From NCBI RefSeq assembly GCF_000687145.1, contig NZ_JMFG01000004.1, positions 1-46,400 on the forward strand: DNA of 46,400 nucleotides, read 5' to 3'. Position numbers and translations under genes: made by a program. The DNA is from Thermoanaerobaculum aquaticum (lineage in GTDB: Bacteria > Acidobacteriota > Thermoanaerobaculia > Thermoanaerobaculales > Thermoanaerobaculaceae). Below the pieces are notes generated by a model. It had not been told where the DNA came from, made no database searches, and saw only the letters and a program-made list of their open reading frames with translations. Below are positions 1,955-28,978 of this stretch, in pieces; position 1 is the first letter of the stretch; the number at the start of each line of letters is the position of its first letter.

Positions 1955-3001
1955 GTGACGCGGGAGGAGATCTTCAAGCTTACGGAAATGGTGAGCTGTG
2001 CCGGTTGAGCGGCTAAGCTGGGTCCGGCGGACCTGGCCCAGGCTCTGGCGCAGCTTTCCTTCCCTTCGGACCCCCGGGTCCTGGTGGGCGGTGACCGCCT
2101 GGACGACGCGGGAATCATCGAGCTTAATCCGGACCTGGCGCTGGTGCAGACCGTGGACTTCTTCACCCCCATCGTGGATGACGGCGAAGACTTTGGGTTT
2201 ATCGCCGCTGTCAACGCGCTTTCGGACATCTACGCCATGGGTGGTGAGCCTCTTTCCGCTCTTGCAGTGGCGGGGTTTGCCCCGGATGTGGTGCCGCTTT
2301 CGGTGCTCGGGGATATCTTCCGCGGCGGTGCCCAAGCTTGCGCGCGGGAAGGCGTGGTGCTTTTGGGCGGGCACACCGTTCGCTCTCCTGAGATCTTTTA
2401 CGGCCTGGCGGTCACCGGCACGGTCCACCCCAGGCGGTTCTTGACCAAGGCGGGAGCCCAACCGGGGGACCTCTTGGTTCTCACCAAGCCTTTGGGCACC
2501 GGTTTGCTTTCCACCTGGCTCAAGCGCGGGCAAATGCCTGAGGAGTTCCTGCAGCCGCTGGTGGCTTCCATGAAAGAGTCCAATCTGCAAGCCTCCCGGG
2601 TGCTGCGCGAGCACGCTCATGCCCTCACCGACGTCACTGGCTTTGGCTTACTGGGCCATGCGCTAGAGATGGCTAAGGCGTCAGGTGTGGCTTTCGAGCT
2701 CTGGGCTTCCGCGGTGCCGTTGCTGCCTGGAGCCATGGAAGCTGCTTGCGCTAAAGCCGTGGCGGGGGGGCTGAAGGCCAACCGGGCTTGGGTGGGCGAA
2801 CGGGTGAGCGGCTGGGAGCTCATCCCCGAGGAGTGGGCCTTGATCCTCTGCGACCCTCAAACCTCCGGTGGGCTTTTGGCCGCCGTGCCTGCCCAAAGTG
2901 CAAAAGAGCTTTTGGAAAAGTTGCCCCACGCGGCGGTCATCGGCACCGTCATCTCGGGGACTTCCGGAACCATCGCGCTTACAATGGAACCCAGGAGGTA
3001 G
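1955..3001 (+). CDS. selD: Selenide, water dikinase (selenophosphate synthetase), selenocysteine-containing
   Basis: SelD makes selenophosphate from selenide and ATP. Reading TGA at 2006-2008 as selenocysteine extends the frame upstream to GTG 1955 and gives 348 residues, matching the usual length. The catalytic N-terminal motif then reads SCAGU(A)AKLGP, with Sec at residue 18 where Cys-type enzymes have Cys. The glycine-rich region, the VDFFTPIVDD metal/ATP site and the LLGGHT and DVTGFGLLGH motifs follow. A hairpin just downstream of the UGA could be the bacterial SECIS. In-frame TAG at 1943 limits how far upstream the start can be. There is no clear Shine-Dalgarno; a TANNNT box lies 6 bases before the GTG. 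Without Sec readthrough only a fragment lacking the active site would be predicted. Confidence 0.93.
2006..2042 (+). promoter_or_regulatory. UGA selenocysteine codon and candidate bacterial SECIS hairpin of selD
   Basis: The in-frame TGA is at 2006-2008. A perfect 5-bp stem, GGTCC (2021-2025) with GGACC (2029-2033), closes a GGC loop at 2026-2028, 17 bases after the UGA. Bacterial SECIS elements lie within the coding region directly after the UGA and usually present guanines in the apical loop for SelB. Spacing and loop fit. A competing lower pairing, CTGGG (2018-2022) with CCCAG (2038-2042), is possible. Confidence 0.6.
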
Positions 3002-3003
3002 CC

Positions 3004-4419
3004 ATGAAGCTCCGTTGGCTTTTTTCCGCTGCTTTGACCGGTGGCGTGTGCCTGGGTTTAGCTTGGTCGGCGGAGCCCCCTACCGTCATTTCCACTGCCG
3101 ATGGGGGGCAGACGCTGTCGCTTACGGTGTACAACGTGGGTCGGGCCCTGGTGCGGGACAGCCGGCCGGTGGTGTTGCCCTCCGGCGTGGTCAAGCTCGA
3201 ATACCGCGACATTGCTGCCAAAGTGATGCCGCAAACCGTGGCGTTCATGGCCGATGACACCGTGGTGCTGGAGCAAAACTACGAGTACGACCTGCTTTCT
3301 CCCAAAACGCTTTTGACCAAGTTCTTGGGCAAGGAAGTGACTTTGGTGCGGGAAGAGCCGCGCCTGGACGGCCCCGGAACCGTGCGACAGGAAATCCGCG
3401 CCACGCTTTTGTCTGTGGAAAACGGCACGGTGTGGCGGGTGGGTGATCGCATCGTGGCCAACCCAGCCTACCGGGAGCTGGTTTTTGACTCGGTGCCGCC
3501 TTACCTGCGGGAAAAACCCACGCTGGTTTGGCTTTTGCAAAGCCAGAAGGCGGGACCGCGCACGGTGCAGGCCACCTACCTCACCGAAGGCATCACCTGG
3601 CGGGCCGACTACGTGTTGAGCCTGGACCAACAGGGGGAGAAAGGGGCCCTTACCGGGTGGGTGACCCTTTCCAACAACTCCGGGGCGTCTTACCCGGAAG
3701 CCAAGCTGCAGCTGGTTGCCGGGGAAGTGCACGTGGTGCGGGAAGAGCGGCCCCGGGAAGCGGTGATGGCCGAAAAAATGATGGCCAAAGCCCCCGGGAT
3801 GGCAGAAGAAGCCCTGGGGGAGTACCACCTTTACACGCTGGAGCGCCCCACCACGATCCTCGACCGCCAGGACAAGCAGGTTTCATTGCTGCAAGCTTCC
3901 GGGGTGAAGGCCGTCAAGCACTTTGTGGTTGCCGGCTTTCCTTACTACTTTTGGTCGCGGCAGGACCTCCACCGCGAGCCGGTACGGGTGAAGCTGGAGA
4001 TGGCCAACACCGCCGCCAACGGCTTGGGTTTGCCGCTGCCGGCGGGGACCGTGCGCGTGTACCAGCGGGATAGCCGCGGGGTCGAGCAGTTCATGGGGGA
4101 AGACCGGATCGAACACACCCCCAAAGACGAAACCGTCAAGTTAGAAATAGGCACGGCCTTTGATGTGGTCGCTGAGCGGGTACAAACGGACTTTCGGTCT
4201 TTTGATAAGGTCACGGAAAGCGCTTTTGAAGTGCGGCTTCGCAACCACAAGGAGGAGCCCATTACCGTGGAGGTGGAAGAAAGCATCGGCGGCGATTGGG
4301 AAATGCTTTCCCATTCGCACCCCTATCAGAAACGCTCGGCTTTTGTGGTGGTGTTTTCGGTGCCGGTGCCCGCTCATGGGCAGAGTGCCTTGGCGTACCG
4401 GGTGCGGGTGCGGCACTAA
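3004..4419 (+). CDS. DUF4139 domain-containing secreted protein
   Basis: A 471-residue protein with an N-terminal signal peptide (MKLRWLFSAALTGGVCLG, cleavage probably after WSA). It has the features of DUF4139 proteins: an early VYNVGRALVRDSRPVVLP strand pair, the LEQNYEYDLLSPKTLLTKFLGK segment, and the core YLTEGITWRADYVLSLD followed by LSNNSGASYPEAKLQLVAGEV. These are beta-rich exported proteins of unknown function. The start is ATG 3004, whose binding site AGGAGG overlaps the end of selD; two bases separate selD's stop from this ATG, so the pair is cotranscribed. A link to selenium metabolism is not implied. An upstream in-frame extension into selD was rejected. Confidence 0.78.
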   Translation: MKLRWLFSAALTGGVCLGLAWSAEPPTVISTADGGQTLSLTVYNVGRALVRDSRPVVLPSGVVKLEYRDIAAKVMPQTVAFMADDTVVLEQNYEYDLLSPKTLLTKFLGKEVTLVREEPRLDGPGTVRQEIRATLLSVENGTVWRVGDRIVANPAYRELVFDSVPPYLREKPTLVWLLQSQKAGPRTVQATYLTEGITWRADYVLSLDQQGEKGALTGWVTLSNNSGASYPEAKLQLVAGEVHVVREERPREAVMAEKMMAKAPGMAEEALGEYHLYTLERPTTILDRQDKQVSLLQASGVKAVKHFVVAGFPYYFWSRQDLHREPVRVKLEMANTAANGLGLPLPAGTVRVYQRDSRGVEQFMGEDRIEHTPKDETVKLEIGTAFDVVAERVQTDFRSFDKVTESAFEVRLRNHKEEPITVEVEESIGGDWEMLSHSHPYQKRSAFVVVFSVPVPAHGQSALAYRVRVRH

Positions 4420-7478: not shown

Positions 7479-7508
7479 ATAGCACGGCGATGAACGGAGG
7501 GCATCAAA

Positions 7509-9317
7509 ATGCTCTTGCTTTCAGTTGAATCGGAAAACGGGGCCACACTAACCTACCGTTTGCAGAAGACGAAAATTGCTGTGGGTTCCGCACCCAGCAA
7601 CGATGTGGTGGTCACCGGCCCAGGCGTTGGTGATCGTCATTTGATCATTCAGCGCAGCGGGGAGGCCTTCACCTTTGTGACCGCCGAACGGCAAATGGTG
7701 GTGTTAAACGGTGAGCGCCGCTCCCGAGGGGTTCTTAACCCCGGCGACCGATTGCGTTTGGGCACCGTGACCCTGGTTTTCCGGGGCATGGTTGGCGGTG
7801 AAGTGGCCTTGACCGAGGAGGAGCCCCCGCGACCGATCAAAGCCCCGGCTCAGCCCACCGCCGAGTCGGTGGTGGTGCGTCCGGAGCCTGGAGGGTTTGC
7901 CCAGGCTCGCATGCGGCTTTTGGAGCTTTTTGCCCAAAGTCGGCCGGACCGCACCCATCAGCTCATCGCCATCCTGCGCGAGGCGGTAGGGGAGGCAGAA
8001 TTTGCCTTGGTGATTCCCCGGGAAGGAGGGGGACCGGCAGCCGAAGGGGTGGTGTTGGCTTCCCTGTGGAGTGGGGAGCTGCCCAACGTACCGGCGGCAA
8101 TTCTCCGGGAGCTGGCGACTCCGGGCAAGTTTGTGATTCAGGACGGAGCGAAGGATGGCGGTACCGCCTTTGTGGCCGTGCGAACGCCCACGGGCTCCCT
8201 GGTGGCGCTGCTTTTGGCCCGACCGGTGGGGGCGTTGGGTGATGAAGGCGTGGCGCTGGTGGCGGAAGCCGCGCGGCTTCTGGGGCTCTTCTGGGAGCAG
8301 GTGGAGCGCATGGACTCAAGCTTCACCAGCTGGGAGCTGGAGGCACGCCACCGCCTGGAGATGCTGCTCCCGGGCACCTCGCAGGCCATCCAGGTGCTGC
8401 GCGATGGTCTTCTGCAAGCGGCCCGCGGTCTGGAGCCAGTTTTGATTTGTGGGGCTCCCGGGTCGGGGCGTACGGAAACCGCCCGCATTTTGGCCACCTT
8501 GGAGCCGGTGGCCGGTCGTCGGGTGGTGATTTTTGAGGGCCGCGACGCCTCTCTGGAGGTTCTGCGGCAGGAGCTCTTTGGCCCATCGGGCAAACCCACC
8601 TTTACCGGAACCATGGGTGGCTTGGTGGGCGAGGCGCGGGGCGGCCTTTTGGTGGTTCGCAACGCCGAGCTTTTGCCGGAACCCATTCAGGTGGAGCTGG
8701 TGGGTGTGGTCAAAACCCAGGCCCAGCAGCCATTGTCGTCCACCAGCACCCGGTGGGTGGTGACCTGCGGCGAGGATCCACTGGCTTTGGTACAGCAGGG
8801 CAAGCTGTCTTCGGCTTTGTTCATGGTGTTTTCCTCGCGCATGCTGCGGGTGCCACGCCTAGAGGAACGCAAGGAGGATTTGCCCTTGATTGTCGCTTCC
8901 CTGTTGCGACAGGTGGCGGCAGAGCAAGGGAAAAACGTGCGCGGCATTACCGTGGAGTGCCTGAACGCGCTGCTGTCCCGGAGCTTTCCCGGGCAAATGG
9001 CGGAGCTGGTGGGGGAGTTGCGACGGCTGGTGGCAGCCACCGCCGAGGGCGATATGGTGCGCTGCGACGAGCAGGTGACGACGGTGGCCGCCAAGAGCGG
9101 TGGGGTGGAGGGTGCGGAGGTCCTGCTCTCGGACAACCTCAAAGAGGTGGTGCCCAAGGTGGAGCAGCTCATCATCGACCGGGTGATGCGCAAGGTGAAG
9201 GGCAATCAGTCCAAAGGCGCGAGGATTCTGGGCATCTCCCGGGGCGCTCTCATTGCCAAGCTCAAGGAGTACAGCATCCCCGACTACCGCTACCTCCGGC
9301 GCCGGCGCGGGGTGTGA
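7509..9317 (+). CDS. FHA - GAF-like - degenerate sigma-54 activator AAA+ - Fis HTH protein
   Basis: A 602-residue protein with the layout of a sigma-54 enhancer-binding protein. Residues 1-95 form an FHA domain (phosphothreonine binding; the usual GR is GS, the SxxH part is present). Residues 135-265 look GAF-like. Residues 280-520 are an AAA+ domain, and 560-590 a Fis-type helix-turn-helix. The AAA+ motifs are damaged: Walker A reads GAPGSGRT (315-322, Lys replaced by Arg), the GAFTGA loop reads TFTGTM (365-370), and Walker B reads GGLLVVRNA where GGTLFLDEI is usual, without the acidic pair. ATP hydrolysis and sigma-54 remodelling are therefore doubtful. It may act as a DNA-binding regulator or scaffold reading a Ser/Thr kinase signal. 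It stands alone in its own unit. Confidence 0.85.
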   Translation: MLLLSVESENGATLTYRLQKTKIAVGSAPSNDVVVTGPGVGDRHLIIQRSGEAFTFVTAERQMVVLNGERRSRGVLNPGDRLRLGTVTLVFRGMVGGEVALTEEEPPRPIKAPAQPTAESVVVRPEPGGFAQARMRLLELFAQSRPDRTHQLIAILREAVGEAEFALVIPREGGGPAAEGVVLASLWSGELPNVPAAILRELATPGKFVIQDGAKDGGTAFVAVRTPTGSLVALLLARPVGALGDEGVALVAEAARLLGLFWEQVERMDSSFTSWELEARHRLEMLLPGTSQAIQVLRDGLLQAARGLEPVLICGAPGSGRTETARILATLEPVAGRRVVIFEGRDASLEVLRQELFGPSGKPTFTGTMGGLVGEARGGLLVVRNAELLPEPIQVELVGVVKTQAQQPLSSTSTRWVVTCGEDPLALVQQGKLSSALFMVFSSRMLRVPRLEERKEDLPLIVASLLRQVAAEQGKNVRGITVECLNALLSRSFPGQMAELVGELRRLVAATAEGDMVRCDEQVTTVAAKSGGVEGAEVLLSDNLKEVVPKVEQLIIDRVMRKVKGNQSKGARILGISRGALIAKLKEYSIPDYRYLRRRRGV

Positions 9318-26779: not shown

Positions 26780-28978
26780 GTGCTCACGGTGACGGAGCTG
26801 TGGCCCTTCTTTGAAACCGGCCAACGCCGAGCGGATCAGCTGTTGTCGGCGGCAATGCTGGCGGTGTTAGCGGTTTCCCGCCTTGCCTTTTTGCCCAAAG
26901 GCCCCTGGGAGCAAGACGAGGCGCTTTTGGCTTGCGGGGTGATGGACTTCGACCCGGCCCACCACATGCCTCACCCCCCGGGCTTTCCCCTGTGGATTTG
27001 GCTGGGGCGGCTGGTTATGCGCTTGGGCGCTGGGGAGCCACTTTTGGCCTTGCAGCTGGCCAGCGCCGCACTTTCGCTTCTTGGGCTTTGGGCGCTATTC
27101 GTCGTGACGAACCGCTGGCTGGGGCGGAACCTGGCGGCGGTGACGGTGCTGGCAGCGGCTTTCATCCCCGGGGTGTGGTTCCACGCCAGCCGCGGCTTTT
27201 CCGAAACCCCTTCGGCGGGGGTTTTTCTGGTGGCCTTGGCGCTCTGGAGTGTGACCCGTAATTTCGTCGCCTCTTCCTTGCTGGTCACGGCCGCGGCCCT
27301 GATCCGTCCCCCCTTGGCGCCGTTTTTTGCCGTGGTTGTGCTGCTTTGGGCTTGGGAAATAAGGGCAAACCCGAGGCTCCTTGGAAAAGCGGCGTTGTGG
27401 TCGGGTTTGCTGGTGGTCCTCAGCCTGGGGCCTCTGATTTTTGAAGCTGGAGGGTGGGAGTTTTACTGGTGGGCCTTCCAAACCCACGGGCAGTACCACG
27501 TGGCGCTTTTGGGCACCGAGGGTTTTTCCTTCCCGCACGTGGGATGGGTGCGGGGCTTGGGTGGCCTGGTGCCAGCGGTCGTCGTGGGGCTTCTGTCGGT
27601 GGTAGGGGGGCTTTGGCTAGTCATGCAGGGGAAGGTCAAGCTTGTGCCGAACCTTCTGGCCGGTGGCTTTTTGATTTACCTGCTGCTCTTTACCCACAAC
27701 CGCACCTATCCCCGCTACTGGGTCCTGACCTGGCTTTTATGTGCCCCTCTGGCGGTGGCAGGGCTTAAGGCACTGCTGCGGGCGAACGTTTTGGTGGCAA
27801 CCGCTGCCGCTGGAGCCGCCACCCTCGGGGCCTTTTGGACCCACCCCGCCCTTTCGTACGTGCATTCGCACCCGCTGCCGGTGGTGGAAGCTTTAACCGC
27901 GGTGGGCAGGGATGAAAAGCGAACCCTGGTGTTTGAGGAGCAGTTCTTTTCGTTCCGGAATTACCTGGCGCGGGTGGGGTTTTTTCGTGCAGCCAGCCTG
28001 CGTTTTTCGGAGGTAAAAGCTCCTAAATTCGCGGTGGGGGGCAGCAACTTGTTCCTGCTGCGGGAAAGCGAGCGGGTGTACCTGCCTGCTTCGGTCACCT
28101 GGGTCAACCGGTGGGAAATCCGCGAGCCCCGGGTGCTGGAGCTTTCCCAGGACCGGTTTTTACGGGCGGAGGTCGTGCAAAACCCGGTGCTCCTCTGGGA
28201 AGGGGGGTCCGTCCTGGAAGAGGAAGATGGTCACCCCTTCGTGTGGCTTTTTCCCGAAAGCACCCTGCTCCTTCCGGCGGTTTCGGGTCCTGGTTTTGTT
28301 ACGCTGGCGGTGGAGCTGCCTCCCGGTGTGCGTTCCAGCCAGGTGGAAGCTTGGGTCGGTGACCAGCATGTGGGGGTTTTTGAGCTTCCTGCCGGGCGCA
28401 ACCTCATTACCGTTCCCGTGCCGGAGTTGCCACAGCGCCAGACGGTCGCCTGGATCATCCCTCTGCGCCTGAAAGCCTCGGAGTATCGCCGCCTGGCGGG
28501 GGATTATCGGCCCTTGGCGTTGCGGGTGTTCTTTGTGTCGTTGGAGGCCTCGCCGTGGAACCCCCGCCCCTACGGGGTGAAGCCTTTTCCTGTGCCCATG
28601 TTTGTGCAGGCAGTTTCGGGCCAGGGTCTCCACGCTCCGGAGCAGTTCATGGGCTTTTCCGGCGCCTGGTGCCAGGCTCGCTGTTCGCTGTCGCTGCCTT
28701 TGGGAAGCGGCTTGCTGCAGCTCACCCTGGCGGCGCCCCGACCCGGAGGAGCGATGGTCACGGTGCGCCTGGGGGCGGTGGAAGCGAAGATCCCGGTGGG
28801 GCCCCAGCCGGTCACGGCCATGCTGCCCGTTCCCCAGGAGCTTGCCCAGCGGCGGCGGGGGGAGCTGGTGGTTTCCACGGATCCTTACCTTCCGGCTAAC
28901 GACCCACGGGAACTGGGTGTGGTGCTGGTGGAGGTGGGGTTTACCCCACCTCCAGCCCTGTCCCTCGCTACTCGGTAA
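26780..28978 (+). CDS. GT-C type membrane glycosyltransferase with large C-terminal beta domain
   Basis: A 732-residue protein. The first 385 residues hold about ten membrane spans. The first loop has EQDEALLACG and DFDPAHHMPHPPGFPLW, the acidic loop typical of GT-C (PMT/ArnT-like) enzymes that use lipid-linked sugars. Residues from about 390 onward are soluble and beta-rich with no recognised domain. The likely role is glycosylation of an exported product. The start is GTG 26780 or GTG 26789; a TAAAGT box lies 6 bases before the first. Its 3' end overlaps the convergent aldehyde dehydrogenase by 11 bases. Confidence 0.72.
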   Translation: MLTVTELWPFFETGQRRADQLLSAAMLAVLAVSRLAFLPKGPWEQDEALLACGVMDFDPAHHMPHPPGFPLWIWLGRLVMRLGAGEPLLALQLASAALSLLGLWALFVVTNRWLGRNLAAVTVLAAAFIPGVWFHASRGFSETPSAGVFLVALALWSVTRNFVASSLLVTAAALIRPPLAPFFAVVVLLWAWEIRANPRLLGKAALWSGLLVVLSLGPLIFEAGGWEFYWWAFQTHGQYHVALLGTEGFSFPHVGWVRGLGGLVPAVVVGLLSVVGGLWLVMQGKVKLVPNLLAGGFLIYLLLFTHNRTYPRYWVLTWLLCAPLAVAGLKALLRANVLVATAAAGAATLGAFWTHPALSYVHSHPLPVVEALTAVGRDEKRTLVFEEQFFSFRNYLARVGFFRAASLRFSEVKAPKFAVGGSNLFLLRESERVYLPASVTWVNRWEIREPRVLELSQDRFLRAEVVQNPVLLWEGGSVLEEEDGHPFVWLFPESTLLLPAVSGPGFVTLAVELPPGVRSSQVEAWVGDQHVGVFELPAGRNLITVPVPELPQRQTVAWIIPLRLKASEYRRLAGDYRPLALRVFFVSLEASPWNPRPYGVKPFPVPMFVQAVSGQGLHAPEQFMGFSGAWCQARCSLSLPLGSGLLQLTLAAPRPGGAMVTVRLGAVEAKIPVGPQPVTAMLPVPQELAQRRRGELVVSTDPYLPANDPRELGVVLVEVGFTPPPALSLATR

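Follow-up and report, generated by a model that had tools for sequence, protein, structure and literature searches.

Gene and domain layout

The window, a 46,400-nt stretch of Thermoanaerobaculum aquaticum DNA, encodes on its forward strand a 602-aa protein. Its open reading frame (7509-9317) starts at an ATG at position 7509, with a GGAGGG read upstream in the sequence. Pfam matches to FHA/Yop-YscD_cpl, Sigma54_activat, AAA_lid_14, and HTH_8 agree with the sigma-54 activator architecture with FHA and AAA+ domains that an earlier note on this DNA had assigned to the gene, and an AlphaFold2 model of the full protein has a mean pLDDT of 83. The features are as follows, with the evidence in parentheses.

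7509..9317, + strand: whole gene, 602 aa, FHA - GAF-fold - pseudo-AAA+ - Fis helix-turn-helix (HTH) (open reading frame, Pfam, orthologs, AlphaFold2)
7496..7501, + strand: likely ribosome-binding site GGAGGG (read in sequence)
7509..7793, + strand: FHA domain, residues 1-95 (Pfam PF00498 and PF16697; family alignment)
7890..8366, + strand: predicted GAF-fold domain, residues 128-286 (AlphaFold2, Foldseek, structural Z; without Pfam match)
8370..8858, + strand: pseudo-AAA+ core, residues 288-450 (Pfam Sigma54_activat, 40.7 bits; fold match)
8451..8474, + strand: Walker A position, GAPGSGRT, Lys replaced by Arg321 (alignment)
8571..8615, + strand: position of the GAFTGA sigma-54 loop, here ELFGPSGKPTFTGTM (alignment)
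8640..8663, + strand: Walker B position, GGLLVVRN, Asp-Glu replaced by Arg384-Asn385 (alignment)
8802..8846, + strand: Arg-finger region, canonical FREDLYYRL lost (alignment)
8859..9071, + strand: AAA+ lid, sensor II Arg lost (PGQMAEL) (Pfam AAA_lid_14; alignment)
9129..9314, + strand: Fis-type HTH and family-specific tail DYRYLRR, residues 541-602 (Pfam HTH_8; identity between families; alignment)

Elsewhere in the window, an open reading frame at 2788-4419 (+) encodes 543 aa with a weak DUF4139 match, and another at 26780-28978 (+, 732 aa) has no Pfam match and may not be a gene.

Degenerate AAA+ motifs

The AAA+ domain is recognized as the sigma-54 type (Pfam PF00158, 40.7 bits against a cut-off of 20.2), and the nearest folds to this part of the full AlphaFold2 model are FleQ, VpsR, and NtrC1 (Z about 22). 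The motif changes described in the earlier note are borne out: the Walker A Lys is Arg321, the Walker B Asp-Glu is Arg384-Asn385 (LLVVRN), and the GAFTGA loop is altered, the segment reading ELFGPSGKPTFTGTM. Beyond these changes, alignment shows that the Arg-finger FREDLYYRL has become LSSALFMVF and that the sensor II motif PGNVREL has become PGQMAEL, with loss of its Arg. When seven other sigma-54 activators from the same genome were co-aligned, all seven had the Walker A Lys, the Walker B Asp-Glu, and the sensor II Arg. The C-terminal Fis-type HTH of the 602-aa protein is intact, as the earlier note had also stated (Pfam HTH_8, 35.7 bits).

Orthologs and selection

Orthologs are present as a single copy in 52 of the 149 genomes of the class, and a phylum sample of 396 genomes gave 15 matches, all in this same class. 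They fall into families that we label f1 (the window's), f2, f5, f10, and f11. An f2-type copy found in an f14 genome lies on a 4.3-kb contig and is probably misbinned (L111). In a tree rooted with canonical FHA-GAF activators of related genomes, every family occupies its own branch, f10 is sister to f11, and f1 groups with f2; this tree comes from a quick search, and long branches meet at its root.

The motif replacements are shared across f1 and f2, which answers the question of the earlier note whether the degenerate motifs are conserved. Among the 33 aligned members of these two families, 32 have lost the Walker A Lys and 32 carry Arg at the Arg321 position; the Walker B Asp is replaced in all 33, with Arg at the Arg384 position in 30. 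The sensor II Arg is lost in 33/33, and both the GAFTGA loop and the Arg-finger are gone. Conservation of the two replacement residues suggests a newly acquired structural or ligand function and not drift. Comparison of the window's gene with that of a close species, a 90% identical relative, gives an overall dN/dS of about 0.07, with 0.06-0.07 for the AAA core. Loss of the AAA+ motifs is fixed in two families, and purifying selection is strong.

The remaining families differ in what they keep. All f5 and f10 members have the Walker A Lys and the sensor II Arg, and nearly all have the Arg-finger; their Walker B reads Glu-Glu or Asn-Glu, and they lack GAFTGA. Indeed, the GAFTGA motif occurs in none of the aligned family members, and since f5 and f10 members with an intact Walker A already lack it, the sigma-54 contact appears to be absent family-wide. 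In f11 (three genera), there is no AAA+ domain: a short linker connects FHA-GAF to the HTH in one continuous open reading frame of 350-373 aa. Assembly error can be ruled out as the source of this absence, as three genera have the same single open reading frame. The split gene that seems to occur at another locus (L048) reflects an unknown base, translated as X, and is not counted as evidence.

Because the AAA+-less f11 is sister to the AAA+-bearing f10, the AAA+ domain seems to be dispensable, and in the window's lineage it would be a structural or dimerization module at most. Conservation is instead concentrated at the C-terminus. Between f1/f2 and the other families, the HTH and tail share 56-65% identity, compared with 24-37% for the AAA+ core, and in every family the Fis HTH with its DYRYLRR tail is the best-conserved region. 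On the alignments and tree, GAFTGA loss, a dead AAA+, and the absence of AAA+ thus appear to form a natural series within one orthologous regulator.

FHA and GAF domains

The N-terminal FHA fold is recognized by Pfam at 29.1 bits (cut-off 20.7). FHA domains contact the phosphate through the Arg of a GR motif and the Ser of an SxxH motif. Here the window's protein reads VGS in place of IGR (Arg to Ser) and GDRH at SxxH (Ser to Gly), a degeneration that the earlier note had not described. Across the family, every aligned FHA-bearing member has Ala or Ser in place of the GR Arg, and the Ser of SxxH is kept in f10 only (all but two FHA-bearing members lack it); the Asn of the NG motif is kept in the window's protein and across the family alignment. 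Given the known FHA chemistry, the absent Arg and Ser argue against phosphothreonine reading, and the earlier suggestion that the protein binds phosphothreonine proteins is not supported.

The domain between FHA and AAA+ (residues 128-286), likewise not described earlier, has a GAF fold by prediction. AlphaFold2 run on the domain gave a pLDDT of 86 and a pTM of 0.81, Foldseek placed the GAF domains of CodY and of A. aeolicus Nlh among its first matches (E 1e-5 to 1e-4), and structural comparison of the model with GAF domains using VIA gave Z scores of 12-13.

Genome context

The genes that the earlier note had proposed looking for are all in the T. aquaticum genome: rpoN, twelve protein-kinase matches, which include Ser/Thr kinases, and ten FHA matches. 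The genome also encodes 14 or more other sigma-54 activator-like proteins.

In 25 genomes, the gene for exosortase H (xrtH) lies 0.6-1.0 kb from the regulator (14/20 in f2, 8/14 in f5, and 3/3 in f11). Where the gene order was drawn in these three families, xrtH is convergent to the regulator with one small membrane protein gene between them, for example at L131, L139, L141, and similar f2 loci, and at L046 and L106. In f1, including the window, xrtH is elsewhere in the genome (0/12 adjacent), and many genomes carry xrtH without the regulator gene. We consider a functional link between the regulator and xrtH suggestive. An exosortase H gene is also present in the window's genome (L168, G000:C20:200527-200982), which encodes two proteins whose IPTL-CTERM tails score above the family cut-off.

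Other neighbors recur as well. In many f2 genomes, a Ser/Thr kinase with TPR-type repeats is encoded a few genes away from the regulator (L131:10984-13533 and equivalents). The smc gene adjoins or lies near the regulator in several f5, f10, and f11 genomes (L041, L042, L047, L048, L106, and L112) and is divergent from it where the orientation was read.

Upstream of the gene, a sigma-70 promoter scan returned no individually significant match, and the aligned f1 upstream regions retain a TTG ... TA pattern with a spacing of about 17 bp. The sigma-54 scan found a perfect -24/-12 match upstream of the regulator's own gene in one f1 relative only (L120), which we count against sigma-54 independence. 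A visual search of the upstream regions in f1, f2, f5, f10, and f11 for a shared operator yielded nothing convincing, and we found no binding site or regulon of the regulator.

Proposed mechanism and alternatives

The orthologs have an AAA+ domain that is lacking or dead in some families and the sigma-54 loop in none, so their common function cannot need ATP-driven remodeling of the sigma-54-polymerase. What they have in common is a phosphate-independent FHA, a GAF domain, and a conserved DNA-binding end, for which the simplest account is a GAF-controlled repressor or activator. We therefore favor, with reasonable though not high confidence, a DNA-binding regulator that is controlled by its GAF domain and needs neither sigma-54 nor ATP. 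It would descend from an FHA-GAF sigma-54 activator and have given up both ATP hydrolysis and the sigma-54 contact. The Fis-type HTH and tail would bind specific DNA sites; a small-molecule or redox signal received by the GAF domain may tune the oligomeric state or DNA binding, which a phosphate-independent protein contact by the FHA domain may also tune; and the protein would act as a repressor or activator, presumably at ordinary sigma-70-type promoters. Regulation without ATP hydrolysis and without sigma-54, as the earlier note had envisaged, is thus probable in view of the fixed motif loss, the purifying selection, and the AAA+-less orthologs, and so is the DNA binding that it also envisaged. 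Against this explanation, a nucleotide or other anion could still occupy the P-loop with its Lys-to-Arg change, and an indirect sigma-54 role is possible, rpoN being in the genome.

A broader proposal, which we regard as speculative and rather unlikely, is that this single-copy protein regulates the XrtH surface-protein system throughout the Thermoanaerobaculia. The protein would be an ATP-free, ligand-gated DNA-binding switch in which GAFTGA was lost first, followed by the ATPase (f1 and f2) or the whole AAA+ (f11), with an FHA domain that does not read phosphate.

Among the alternatives, the one that survives best, although we consider it unlikely, is a sigma-70-type regulator whose pseudo-AAA+ pocket senses ATP, ADP, c-di-GMP, ppGpp, or another anion without hydrolyzing it, on the model of R. 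capsulatus NtrC or VpsR/FleQ. The conservation of Arg321 (32/33) and Arg384 (30/33), which speaks against drift, and the purifying selection on the AAA core are compatible with such a pocket, and the two nearest folds, FleQ and VpsR, have both been solved with c-di-GMP. However, f11 orthologs manage without AAA+, and no FleQ-like c-di-GMP motif was noticed.

The very high conservation of the Fis-type HTH, its single copy per genome, and the adjoining smc gene in several f5, f10, and f11 genomes would also be expected of a Fis-like nucleoid-organizing protein rather than a promoter-specific regulator. We think this improbable, as two N-terminal signaling domains are under constraint and the smc neighborhood is not seen in f1 and f2. 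Marginally less probable still is a negative partner that poisons other sigma-54 activators in mixed rings or competes for enhancer sites. The 14 or more candidate targets, the presence of rpoN, and an AAA+ fold that is predicted to be kept in f1 and f2 are consistent with it, but both the Arg-finger at the subunit interface and sensor II have been lost, AAA+-less f11 orthologs would be unable to form mixed rings, and conservation across families centers on the DNA-binding end.

A decaying paralog without function, for which the loss of all catalytic motifs might speak, is refuted in practice by the dN/dS of about 0.07, the copies kept in 52 genomes, and the conserved replacement residues. The earlier note had named homologs with canonical motifs as a sign of such decay; a more canonical AAA+ does exist in f5 and f10, but these are orthologs, from other families, of a gene that is not decaying.

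The regulator is one orthologous protein in three AAA+ states (ATP-competent-looking without the sigma-54 loop, dead, and absent), with nearly the same DNA-binding end. Such a series makes testable what an AAA+ ring still does after the loss of sigma-54 activation. A further lesson is that domain matches alone are not enough to annotate sigma-54 activators or phosphothreonine readers.

Comparison with known systems

Literature searches, with most subscription journals outside their reach, found no published description of the regulator and nothing on FHA enhancer-binding proteins in Acidobacteria, exosortase in Thermoanaerobaculum, or XrtH. By sequence, the best solved matches are ZraR (1ojl, E 1.9e-20) and NtrX (5m7n). 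The regulator shares with sigma-54 activators of the NtrC/ZraR/NtrX type the AAA+ fold, the lid, and the Fis HTH, in the same order; unlike them, it lacks GAFTGA, the Walker A Lys, the Walker B Asp-Glu, the Arg-finger, and the sensor II Arg.

Three enhancer-binding proteins are reported to work with sigma-70: R. capsulatus NtrC, in which GAFTGA is deleted and ATP is bound without hydrolysis; V. cholerae VpsR, which lacks GAFTGA and does not need ATP; and Caulobacter NtrC, which also lacks GAFTGA and needs ATP binding and a Walker B residue (PMC10274813). Common to them and to the regulator described here is an enhancer-binding-protein scaffold without the sigma-54 loop. In contrast to the NtrC proteins, which need ATP binding, Walker A and B are replaced here and some orthologs have no AAA+ at all, and unlike in all three, FHA-GAF takes the place of the receiver domain.

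Closer in layout are the canonical FHA-GAF-AAA+-Fis proteins of related genomes (L177, L178, L179, L180, L182, and L183), which have the same domain order and served to root the tree. Unlike the regulator, most of these paralogs keep the FHA Arg and Ser (e.g., GSRSSADI...VSRNHA), and all those read have Walker A and B, with a loop reading GAATGV or GVATGV.

CodY is a GAF-wHTH global regulator that uses no ATPase. The likeness lies in the GAF fold as the signaling part of an ATPase-free DNA-binding regulator; CodY has an HTH of another family and no FHA domain, and we do not claim common ancestry. The individual ideas put forward here therefore have precedents, and what is new is the combination of full catalytic replacement, loss of the FHA phosphate contacts, and AAA+-less orthologs.
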